Assembly (NCBI GenBank): GCA_027064085.1
Contig: JAMOQH010000022.1
Span: 1 to 62,846, forward strand
Source of the DNA: a bacterium
GTDB lineage: Bacteria > UBP6 > JAFGXH01
Length of the DNA: 62,846 nt
Direction of reading: 5' to 3'
The notes below the pieces were generated by a model that saw only the letters and a program-made list of their open reading frames with translations, was not told the DNA's origin and ran no database searches. Positions 54,679-57,866 of this stretch are shown piece after piece. Numbering within the stretch: position 1 is the first letter of the stretch; each line of letters opens with the position of its first letter. The position numbers and the translations under genes are program-made.

Positions 54679-54727
54679 TACAGAAACAAAATTTTACCAC
54701 TTTACTCCTACAGAAATAAAACTTTAC
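54679..54727 (+). repeat. Two imperfect direct repeats, possible operator, upstream of the radical SAM gene
   Basis: TACAGAAACAAAATTTTAC (54679-54697) and TACAGAAATAAAACTTTAC (54709-54727) match at 17 of 19 positions and are 30 bp apart centre to centre, close to three helical turns. They lie 60-108 bp upstream of the start at 54787. The rest of 54449-54786 is AT-rich with no gene visible. Confidence 0.5.
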
Positions 54728-54786: not shown

Positions 54787-56601
54787 ATGGAAATAAAAAA
54801 AGCAATTCACCTTTTATATGTACCAACTATGTTTTGTAATATGGCGTGTAAATACTGTTATTTAGGTAATGATACTAATGTAAAACTTAATCAAAATTCA
54901 GCTATTACTACTCTTGAGTATGCAATAAAAAAATTTTTAGATAAAGGATATCTTCCCTTTAATTTATCTTTCCATGGTGGAGAAGTTACTACATTATCTA
55001 CTGAAACGCTAGAAAAACTATTTATATTTACCAAAGATTATTATAAAAAGTATAAAGTGGAAATTACATCTATGGGCTATAAAATAAACCCTATTCATAT
55101 AAAAACAAATTTGTTTAATCTTGAAAAACATATAGAAATACTAAAAAAGTATGAAGTTTCTATTAGTGGAAGTGTTGATTTACCGTTATTTCTTCATAAA
55201 AAATACAGAGTAGATAAAAAAGGTCACTCTACCTTAAAAAAAATAAAAAATAATTTAAAGCTTCTTGCTGATTATCCATTTAATAAAAAGATTTCATGTG
55301 TAGTAACAAAAGAACATCTTAAATATATAGATAAATTTATAGAAGATATAAAATATATACATTATGACATAGGTCTTGATATGACTAAGTTTAATATAAT
55401 GTTTTCTTTTGATTCATCTAAAAATACAGATAAGTTTGAAACTAAAATTCCAGGAACAGAAATGCTTAATCATGATGAACAAGTTATTTTTTATAAAAAA
55501 ATAATGCAAGCATTTAAAGATAGTGAGCTTGATTATGGTTTGAAAACACATTGGTTTAAAGAATTTACCCCAGCTTTTTGTTGTTCTGCTAGTAATTGTG
55601 GTAATAAATTCTTTTTATTGCAATCAGATGGGAATGTTTACTCATGTCCAAGAGGGCAAGCATCTAAAGAATATTATTATGGAAATATTTTTAAAAACGA
55701 TATAGATAAAATAGTTAATAGTGGTTGGAAAATCATAGAAGCTAATGAAAATAAACTTGATATTCATGATGATTGCTTAAAATGCGAATATTTTCCATAT
55801 TGTAATTTGGGTTGTACCTTTGTTAGAACTGAAACTCAAACAAATAAGAGTTATACTTGTAAGTTACAAAAAGAAATTTATAAAAACAATAAAGATTTAT
55901 ATCCACCATTTGAACAAGAATATCTTGATAACTATATAAAATCTTATATCTATAGAAATAAATTTAAAAAACTAAAACAACTTGAAAACTATACAGAAAA
56001 AGTTTTTAACATTACTTCTGAGTTAAACGATGAAAAAAATTCAATACATAAAATAATAGAGGGAGATGAAATATTAAAAAAAATATATTCAAACGAACTA
56101 TTTTCTCTTGAAGTTGATAATCAAATCTATAAATTGTCTAGTCAAATTCTAAAAAATAAAAGTGATATTATTTTTATATCAGAAAAAACAAATATAAATT
56201 TATTAGTAAACAAGGAAGTTTTTGCTATAAATTCTAAAAAAGGAAACGAAGTTAATAATTATTTATTAATTAGTGCTTTAAGAAATACTCAAGTTATTTA
56301 TGGTGATGAAGGCAGAACGAAACAAGAACACCTCTTTGATTATTCTGTATATAAGAATTCATTTATAAGTTTCTCAAAAGAAAATGAAGATTATTATAGT
56401 TTTAACTTAAATAATATATTTAAAATACATAAAAAGCTTTTTTTAAATGATGTTAGAAATAATTTATTCATAACTACAAAAACGATGAGGGAATATCATT
56501 ACTCAAAACATAAAAAAAATGCTTTTTATCATATTCAGGCAATAAATATACCTTTTGCTAACATAGAATTTTATTGGATACACAATGAGGCCCAAAAATG
56601 A
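54787..56601 (+). CDS. Radical SAM/SPASM enzyme, candidate peptide maturase
   Basis: A 604-residue protein. The [4Fe-4S]/SAM motif C17-x3-C21-x2-C24 (FCNMACKYCYLG) and NLSFHGGEVTTLS match the radical SAM core. A full SPASM domain follows: C-x10-G-x4-C (CGNKFFLLQSDGNVYSC), then CLKCEYFPYCNLGC (C-x2-C-x5-C-x3-C) and a late Cys 14 residues on. This is the architecture of anaerobic sulfatase-maturating and ribosomal-peptide-modifying enzymes (HxsB, PqqE). About 215 further residues after the SPASM domain (about 390-604) are unlike a known domain. The gene overlaps by 4 bp a small protein with a poly-Asn tail, and a GIDE-like membrane protein follows. A maturase acting on that tail is my inference. 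Confidence 0.85.
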   Translation: MEIKKAIHLLYVPTMFCNMACKYCYLGNDTNVKLNQNSAITTLEYAIKKFLDKGYLPFNLSFHGGEVTTLSTETLEKLFIFTKDYYKKYKVEITSMGYKINPIHIKTNLFNLEKHIEILKKYEVSISGSVDLPLFLHKKYRVDKKGHSTLKKIKNNLKLLADYPFNKKISCVVTKEHLKYIDKFIEDIKYIHYDIGLDMTKFNIMFSFDSSKNTDKFETKIPGTEMLNHDEQVIFYKKIMQAFKDSELDYGLKTHWFKEFTPAFCCSASNCGNKFFLLQSDGNVYSCPRGQASKEYYYGNIFKNDIDKIVNSGWKIIEANENKLDIHDDCLKCEYFPYCNLGCTFVRTETQTNKSYTCKLQKEIYKNNKDLYPPFEQEYLDNYIKSYIYRNKFKKLKQLENYTEKVFNITSELNDEKNSIHKIIEGDEILKKIYSNELFSLEVDNQIYKLSSQILKNKSDIIFISEKTNINLLVNKEVFAINSKKGNEVNNYLLISALRNTQVIYGDEGRTKQEHLFDYSVYKNSFISFSKENEDYYSFNLNNIFKIHKKLFLNDVRNNLFITTKTMREYHYSKHKKNAFYHIQAINIPFANIEFYWIHNEAQK

Positions 56602-56987
56602 ACAAAAAAATAATAGCTTTTTTAAAAGAAATTGGTTTAACCACGGATGACATAATGGATCTATTAGAAAAATTAGCTTTTTTTCTTGATACTCCAAGTA
56701 AAACTCTCCTATACAGAAATGGACAATTATATCTATTAGAATACGATGAAATTATAGAAATGATAGAAGTAAACACCCAAAATAATTCAGTAATAGAGTT
56801 TAATGGAAATAAAATAAATAGAATTTCTCAAAGTTATTATCTGGGGGCGGGAATACTTCAAGTTAATGATGTTGATTTAAGCAACAACAACAACAACAAT
56901 AACAATAATAATAACAACAATAATAACAATAATAACAATAACAACAATAATAATAACAATAATAATGGAAATAATAATAATGGTTAG
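56598..56987 (+). CDS. Small protein with a 28-Asn C-terminal tail, candidate maturase substrate
   Basis: A 129-residue protein. Residues 1-95 are a soluble, ordered-looking region (helical start MNKKIIAFLKEIGLTTDDIM, then strands KTLLYRNGQLYLLEYDE, NSVIEFNGNKI, SYYLGAGILQVNDVDLS). Residues 96-129 are 28 Asn, Gly, 4 Asn, Gly, then the stop. The Asn codons are mixed irregularly (13 AAC, 15 AAT), so the tract is not a pure trinucleotide expansion. The start overlaps the maturase stop by 4 bp (ATGA) and the next gene starts 9 bp on, so all three are one unit. A leader plus modifiable core layout is typical of ribosomal peptide precursors; a low-complexity linker or surface tail is the alternative. 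Confidence 0.75.
   Translation: MNKKIIAFLKEIGLTTDDIMDLLEKLAFFLDTPSKTLLYRNGQLYLLEYDEIIEMIEVNTQNNSVIEFNGNKINRISQSYYLGAGILQVNDVDLSNNNNNNNNNNNNNNNNNNNNNNNNNNNNGNNNNG
56883..56984 (+). repeat. Poly-asparagine codon tract (AAC/AAT)n
   Basis: Positions 56883-56966 hold 28 consecutive Asn codons, then GGA, four more AAT codons and GGT before the TAG at 56985. Synonymous mixing argues for selection at the protein level, yet replication slippage between related organisms or assemblies is likely, so the exact copy number should be treated with care. Confidence 0.9.
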
Positions 56988-56996
56988 GAGATAGAA

Positions 56997-57866
56997 ATGA
57001 ATATATCAGAAAAAACTAAAAAAGCTATATTTTTAATTATTGTTATTGCATTAATGTATTTTTCTTCAGCTTATGGTTATCGTTTTGGCTACTATATGTT
57101 GGCTTATAATTTACTTATGGGATTTTTAGTTTTAATAAATATCTATTACCTATACTTCTTCTATAAAAAAAGTATGTTTTATTACAAAACTCCATATTAC
57201 AACAAAGCTTTAGTTGGAATGTATGTTAAATTTAAGGGTATAGTCGAAGATTACAATAAACTAAAATCACCTATAGACGGTAAAATCTGTGAATACTATA
57301 AGTTTAAGTTAAAAGCTCTTTGGAGTGTAAAGGCTCCTAGTCCATCAAAGGGATATATAACAGAAACAAAACCATTAAGAATGGGACACTCTCAAAAAAT
57401 GATAAGAGTACATGATGCGAATAGTAAAGTATTAGTAGATTCTGAAATACCCGATGGAAAAATTGGAAAATATAAAATTAGAAAAGTAATTACAGATTAC
57501 AATAATCCAATAGATGGCTTCCCTTCGGCAGCTAAATACAAGACATATAGACATATCAATAACTATATTGAAGCAGGAGATACAATCACTATTTATGGTC
57601 GATTAATTAAAAAGAAAAATGGAGATTATGTTATAACTAATACTAAACATCCTAGAATGCCTTTTGTTATTTATTTAGGAGATATGCTAAAGTTTGCTGC
57701 TTTCTACAAGTATGAATTTATTGATAAATTTGTTACAATTATTATTTTAGCAATGTTGTATTTTTTACCTATGTATAAATTCCTTCCCAATCTAGCATTT
57801 CCGATTATTCAAATATTATCAGTTTTTGGTATTCTTGCTCCATTTAAAAAATTATTTGTAAAATAA
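56997..57866 (+). CDS. GIDE-like-domain membrane protein of the poly-Asn locus
   Basis: A 289-residue protein with two N-terminal helices (about 8-55: AIFLIIVIALMYFSSAYGY, MLAYNLLMGFLVLINIYYLYFF), a globular region (about 75-230) and two or more C-terminal helices (TIIILAMLYFLPMY, AFPIIQILSVFGILAPF). The middle region (YVKFKGIVEDYNKLKSPIDG, KICEYYKFKLKAL, IEAGDTITIYGRLIKKKNGD) resembles the GIDE domain of membrane E3 ligases and their bacterial relatives, which in bacteria have no known role. AGGAG 9 bp behind the poly-Asn gene precedes the ATG. By position it could export, anchor or process the poly-Asn protein. Its end overlaps the convergent ttcA-like gene by 15 bp. Confidence 0.55.
   Translation: MNISEKTKKAIFLIIVIALMYFSSAYGYRFGYYMLAYNLLMGFLVLINIYYLYFFYKKSMFYYKTPYYNKALVGMYVKFKGIVEDYNKLKSPIDGKICEYYKFKLKALWSVKAPSPSKGYITETKPLRMGHSQKMIRVHDANSKVLVDSEIPDGKIGKYKIRKVITDYNNPIDGFPSAAKYKTYRHINNYIEAGDTITIYGRLIKKKNGDYVITNTKHPRMPFVIYLGDMLKFAAFYKYEFIDKFVTIIILAMLYFLPMYKFLPNLAFPIIQILSVFGILAPFKKLFVK

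Follow-up and report, generated by a model that had tools for sequence, protein, structure and literature searches.

A contig of 62,846 nucleotides from a bacterium of the phylum UBP6 (JAMOQH010000022.1, GenBank assembly GCA_027064085.1; this whole stretch is ‘the window’) carries three adjacent genes that encode a radical S-adenosylmethionine (rSAM)/SPASM enzyme, a small protein ending in a run of asparagines and a membrane protein (Table 1). We propose, with a probability of about 0.7, that they represent a maturase–substrate system in which a dedicated rSAM/SPASM enzyme would act on C-terminal Asn runs of the neighbouring gene’s product. The pairing of the enzyme with an Asn-run protein is well supported: the three-gene cassette is also present in seven genomes from two further phyla, which makes eight in total, and relatives of the enzyme adjoin Asn-ended tail fibres in Campylobacter prophages. 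An earlier note on the window had taken the Asn tract for a modified core; its recurring partnership with the enzyme holds, whereas for the modification itself we go only as far as to infer, from sequence comparison, that the run is the substrate and that its Asn residues are modified. It is possible, at odds somewhat short of even, that a single rSAM chemistry turns oligo-Asn C-termini into a new, cross-linked or oxidised Asn polymer in both the cellular peptide and the phage fibre tips.

Table 1. Features of the three-gene locus and its upstream repeat, in window positions
Feature	Positions	Strand	Remarks
Direct repeat, 2 x 19 nt	54679..54727	+	TACAGAAACAAAATTTTAC / TACAGAAATAAAACTTTAC; start-to-start spacing 30, 89% identical
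rSAM/SPASM enzyme, 604 aa	54787..56601	+	rSAM core, SPASM, family-specific C-terminal domain
Asn-tailed protein, whole gene, 129 aa	56598..56987	+	
Leader of the Asn-tailed protein, 95 aa	56598..56882	+	Motifs LLYRNGQLYxL and EFxGxxIxxIxxxYYLG, conserved across three phyla
Asn-rich tail N28-G-N4-G, presumably the modified core	56883..56984	+	Similar tails in 7 other cassettes
Membrane protein, 289 aa	56997..57866	+	Hydrophobic segments near both ends, soluble middle of ~170 aa

The locus and its Asn-tailed protein

As the earlier note had described, the open reading frames (ORFs) of the enzyme and the Asn-tailed protein overlap by 4 bp, that of the membrane protein follows after 9 bp, and paired repeats lie upstream. 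The private promoter that it had also placed there finds no backing, with 25 promoter-like sites against 28.4 expected by chance, and a terminator scan was likewise at chance level. In 98 relatives from the same phylum, the two nearest genomes among them, no homologue of the same kind was found for any of the three genes, and the locus is therefore patchily distributed. The tail of the second protein reads as first reported, 28 Asn, Gly, 4 Asn and Gly after a 95-residue part; AAC and AAT codons are mixed in the tract, which is the only run of at least 10 Asn codons in the 3.65-Mb genome. Only one further AAY10 run occurs in the phylum, a pure (AAC)10 in a family member (G002:C231:25390-25419).

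An rSAM/SPASM enzyme with its own C-terminal domain

The enzyme belongs to the radical SAM superfamily (PF04055, 39.3 bits against a cut-off of 29.5) and contains a SPASM domain (TIGR04085 of NCBIfam, 44.4 bits against 27). Its CX3CX2C motif (C17, C21 and C24) is invariant in 13 enzymes, and all eight SPASM cysteines (C265, C271, C287, C330, C333, C339, C343 and C358) align one to one with those of the anaerobic sulfatase maturase anSMEcpe, so the cysteine sets are as complete as the earlier note had claimed. Exactly 11 cysteines are invariant in the family, each aligned as an rSAM or SPASM cluster ligand. The region that the note had called unfamiliar, the C-terminal ~205 residues (about 400–604), indeed matches no Pfam family, no PDB sequence and, at E ≤ 0.001, no PDB fold; it is predicted with good confidence (predicted local distance difference test score, pLDDT, 85) to be mainly beta and ends in REYHYxKHxKNAFYHIQAINxPFxxIEFxW, within which (R)EYHYxKHxKNAFYHIQAINxPF is the conserved block that stands out most in the family. 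Neither the enzyme nor the leader matches a Pfam or NCBIfam model for a PqqD-like recognition element (RRE), a domain that not all rSAM-modified ribosomally synthesised and post-translationally modified peptide (RiPP) systems carry.

Against the named rSAM peptide maturases of NCBIfam (DynA, DarE, PapB, HxsB, GrrM, XyeB and others), the enzyme scores far below every cut-off, the best being DynA with 93 of 450 bits, and its phage and cellular relatives likewise stay under these cut-offs. The nearest maturases by hidden Markov model (HMM) score are DynA, anSME, PapB and AmcB, which perform their chemistry at side-chain carbons. The best structural match of the core is anSMEcpe (PDB 4k37; template modelling (TM) score 0.72 normalised to the target, E 1e-13), and as this is the closest solved structure, one may ask whether the enzyme is itself an anaerobic sulfatase maturase that makes formylglycine. 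This is scarcely conceivable: it reaches 86 bits where that family’s cut-off is 349, the Asp after the third SPASM Cys of anSMEcpe is a Pro in the window (CPR against CDF), and the Asn/Gly tails hold neither Ser nor Cys, with no sulfatase seen in the cassettes. The phage protein family phrog_1802 matches the enzyme over its full length (3.8e-47, residues 12–597); generic rSAM proteins also match the core of this profile, but stop at profile position ~400–490 and were not counted.

The cassette recurs in three phyla

A profile search of 386 genomes, sampled at one to three per family, gave cassettes in G154 and G290, from a phylum other than the window’s, with enzyme, small protein and membrane protein in the window’s order. 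Their small proteins end in NNNNNNNNNNGNNNGNNG, and the window’s leader and membrane protein are homologous to theirs (z = 10–12 and 23–25 against shuffles, respectively). In an out-of-sample survey of 397 genomes of Campylobacter’s phylum, for which the query was the enzyme’s C-terminal domain only, as the earlier note had advised, the full cassette appeared in G742, G584 and G641, with Asn-rich tails of N8GN2G, N12GN2G and N14G. The same note had named beforehand a leader search as the one that could refute its proposal. Run with the tail removed in family f238 of this phylum, it returned five matches at E < 1e-15, namely these three genomes together with G870 (N9GN2GN2G) and G834 (N17GN3G), and all five lie beside the enzyme and membrane genes and keep the poly-Asn tail. 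Weak matches in G856, G850 and G615 (E 2e-4 to 5e-3) come without the enzyme, a poly-Asn tail or a related membrane gene and were set aside as chance.

Across the eight cassettes, the small proteins are 108–143 residues long, with a recognisable leader (YYLG motif), 10–32 Asn with a few Gly and a final Gly. This is the arrangement of a leader–core precursor beside a modifying enzyme, conserved across genomes, by which RiPP loci are recognised. The six cassette enzymes included in a tree form one clade (100/100 support) apart from the phage enzymes; G870 and G834, found later, were not in it. Six loci were found after the hypothesis had been formed, the five cassettes of G742, G584, G641, G870 and G834 and a prophage of G582 described below, and all fit it. 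Near the cassette, both g137 genomes have short repeated translated elements between genes (LRHSYIDSSDAVGEILL...; L101:6495-6749 and L102:8058-8384), which are an interspersed repeat.

Phage relatives lie beside fibres that end in Asn

Scanning GTDB genomes with the enzyme gave two full-length relatives, both in Campylobacter, and further relatives were found in viral contigs. The phage relatives include the C-terminal domain without Pfam or PDB match, and the Campylobacter prophage enzyme matches phrog_1802 at 9.3e-122. In Mu-like Campylobacter prophages and phage CAM-P21 the gene order is tail fibre, a 211-residue chaperone-like protein and the enzyme, and all 11 viral contigs that encode the 211-residue protein also encode the enzyme.

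A conserved tail gene that precedes the fibre gene served to compare the prophages. Asn runs (NNNNY, GNNF, GNNS or CNNNNN) terminate each of the 13 distinct phage or prophage fibres encoded beside the enzyme, and NN falls within the last six residues in 13 of 13 fibres with the enzyme compared to 0 of 19 in sister prophages without it (Fisher p = 2.9e-9 on loci, 1.9e-7 on distinct ends and ~0.004 on tip clusters, 5 vs 5). The sister prophages have the same upstream and downstream genes, with a chaperone of 165–170 residues instead. The fibre bodies that adjoin this run are mutually unrelated (five tip clusters), so that the run is the feature common to the fibres. The G582 prophage encodes a fibre ending in NGNNNNNGNNNTK, then a 124-residue protein (L173:4389-4763) in place of one of 211, then the enzyme, and the chaperone-like slot is therefore filled by different proteins.

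These data bear on the suspicion that the Asn runs are coincidental, the window’s tract being a product of slippage in AT-rich repeats and the fibre ends a recombination junction for tip exchange. AAY repeats do expand readily and related prophages do swap fibre tips, yet we consider this highly improbable: the window’s tract is unique in its genome, has mixed codons and recurs in genomes of 39–54% GC. Junction homology accounts neither for Asn runs on precursors that are not homologous and come from three phyla, nor for the lack of such runs in sister prophages whose flanks are the same.

A looser fit is the 96-kb viral contig L062: two genes ahead of its enzyme is a 34-residue ORF ending in CTNNSNH (MTTVAVAENLSYVVNTTTTYGTCITTNCTNNSNH; L062:5051-5155), which has a good ribosome-binding site and is possibly a minimal substrate. 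Three genes upstream of the same enzyme, a tail-like protein ends in a Cys-rich segment (CALCASCSGCPC; L062:4544-5046). Frameshifts interrupt some enzyme genes: at L052:6953-8710 (L178) the break lies inside the C-terminal REYHY block, beside the sole fibre with a GNNS end, and at L053:6965-8757 (L175) it follows residue ~150 and splits the enzyme, the fibre end still being GNNF; the latter strain has a second, intact enzyme copy (L070/L174). A by-eye likeness between the leader and the 211-residue chaperone-like protein (LSDDEVDELFKKA / LTTDDIMDLLEKLA) was rejected by profile comparison (probability 0.1). Elsewhere, the viral contig IMGVR_UViG_3300040802_000030 (L055:5485-8630) carries two PapB-like rSAM genes beside a 163-residue protein with a dense Cys/Asn repeat at its C-terminus (CVCNCNYACTCDCNYCTCNCANECSCQTYYY) and with tail-collar-like genes close by; this protein is possibly another case of rSAM modification in phages, unrelated to the one described above.

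Membrane protein and surroundings

The membrane protein is the third gene in all eight cassettes and is found in no phage module, and it therefore probably handles the cellular product, which it would anchor, export or receive. Its earlier labelling as GIDE-like has to be dropped: there is no PF12483 match by the Pfam gathering score, and an HMM family search of G000, G154 and G290 for GIDE/MULAN finds nothing at the membrane gene. No copy of the protein was found on plasmids, and no protease gene lies within the cassette. A role as a defence system was rejected, as PADLOC gave no match.

Proposed reaction and its rivals

In the scheme that we favour, the enzyme, equipped with two auxiliary Fe–S clusters and its own C-terminal domain, would act at the extreme C-terminal Asn run. 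The cellular substrate would be the 108–143-residue protein, an ordered leader followed by a core of 10–32 Asn, a few Gly and a final Gly; the phage substrate would be the tip of a receptor-binding tail fibre, with last residues NNNNY, GNNF or similar and a chaperone-like protein encoded between fibre and enzyme. The cellular cores consist of Asn and Gly only, without Cys or aromatic residues, and thus no thioether or aryl cross-links can form within them. As a committed guess, to which we give only just less than an even chance, the chemistry would be a two-electron oxidation: a hydrogen atom would be abstracted from Asn, probably at C-beta, to give an Asn–Asn C–N or C–C cross-link or dehydro-Asn, and the reaction would be repeated along the run. 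We favour oxidation because the 11 invariant cysteines all serve as cluster ligands, which leaves no spare Cys as a hydrogen donor; the same holds for anSME, which carries out two-electron oxidations.

The main chemical rival is epimerisation, in which Asn would be converted to D-Asn along the run without change of mass. PoyD-type enzymes epimerise residues in polytheonamide, and D-Asn is known from the Asn-rich cores of proteusins; such a reaction would suit a homopolymer that offers no partner residue, and also the short NN pairs of fibres. The known rSAM peptide epimerases of the PoyD/YydG type use a Cys as hydrogen donor, however, and no such extra Cys is invariant here, whereas the full eight-Cys SPASM set is of the anSME/DynA type. 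We regard a PoyD-like peptide epimerase as unlikely.

The main functional rival leaves the Asn run unmodified, as a recognition or docking tail for the enzyme or the assembled product, with the modified residue in the leader, the fibre body, the chaperone or another protein. Enzyme–substrate pairing predicts the co-occurrence we observe and is silent on which residues change, and the leader, with its YYLG motif, is conserved too. The unrelated bodies of the five tip clusters offer no other common target residue in the fibres, though, docking motifs seldom differ in length as much as these runs do (2 to 32 Asn), and the cellular run is a terminal feature like a RiPP core; we judge a docking tail to be quite unlikely.

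Several points nevertheless weigh against the proposal that the enzyme acts on Asn runs in cells and phages alike, among them that the run could serve for docking, with another site being the one modified. Fibre ends have 2–5 Asn compared to 10–32 in cellular cores, a large difference, and the product may therefore differ. The fibre of L052 ends in GNNS next to a frameshifted enzyme, possibly a decaying pair. Finally, phage modules lack the membrane protein, which is therefore not needed for a step common to phages and cells.

Implications and comparison with known systems

The enzyme–poly-Asn system is previously unnamed. No model in NCBIfam, Pfam or PADLOC covers the leader, the membrane protein or the C-terminal domain of the enzyme, and the openly licensed papers searched, a weak form of evidence, describe no rSAM modification of tail fibres and, in line with the earlier note, no poly-Asn core. 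To our knowledge, rSAM modification of a phage virion adhesin would be the first of its kind. Should the proposal be true, this maturase family would have an Asn-only substrate and hence a chemistry beyond the known Cys- or aromatic-based cross-links, and some phages would finish their host-recognition tips enzymatically. Laboratory-made phage adhesins and retargeted pyocins would be affected, as such fibres may be inactive without the rSAM enzyme. A natural experiment is already at hand in the prophages that have the enzyme and their counterparts that lack it.

Among described entries, phrog_1802 (labelled ‘radical SAM domain-containing protein’ in PHROGs) is like the window’s enzyme over its full length, but comes without function, substrate, fibre link or cellular cassette, and the window’s enzyme falls in a separate cellular clade. 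anSMEcpe shares the core fold and all eight SPASM cysteines, whereas the window’s enzyme lacks the Asp after the third of them, has an extra C-terminal domain and has no sulfatase partner. Polytheonamide-type proteusins also have an Asn-rich core that is modified by rSAM enzymes such as PoyD; unlike them, the window’s system has no spare invariant Cys, and no nitrile-hydratase-like leader, methyltransferase or dehydratase gene is seen in the cassette.

On the phage side, experiments on the CJIE1-type H-fibre of C. jejuni CAMSA2147 have shown that this fibre is the receptor-binding protein and depends on the downstream DUF4376 chaperone (PMC7882524). It occupies the same Mu-like prophage tail position, and its arrangement matches the 343-residue fibres of prophages without the enzyme, whereas the enzyme-bearing prophages have another tip with an Asn end, the 211-residue chaperone-like protein and the enzyme; none of the openly licensed papers searched joins CJIE1 to this enzyme. 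The many rSAM genes of virulent Campylobacter phages have been described as metabolic modules (PMC2853527).

The enzyme, a radical SAM and SPASM member in no named maturase family, would function with its precursor as rSAM/SPASM RiPP maturases do. With the pairs built around DynA, DarE, PapB, AmcB, GrrM/OscB, XyeB and HxsB, it shares the rSAM core, the SPASM domain with two auxiliary clusters and a small leader–core protein encoded beside the enzyme; it differs from all of these pairs in its own ~205-residue C-terminal domain, its Asn/Gly-only core and its phage relatives beside fibres.

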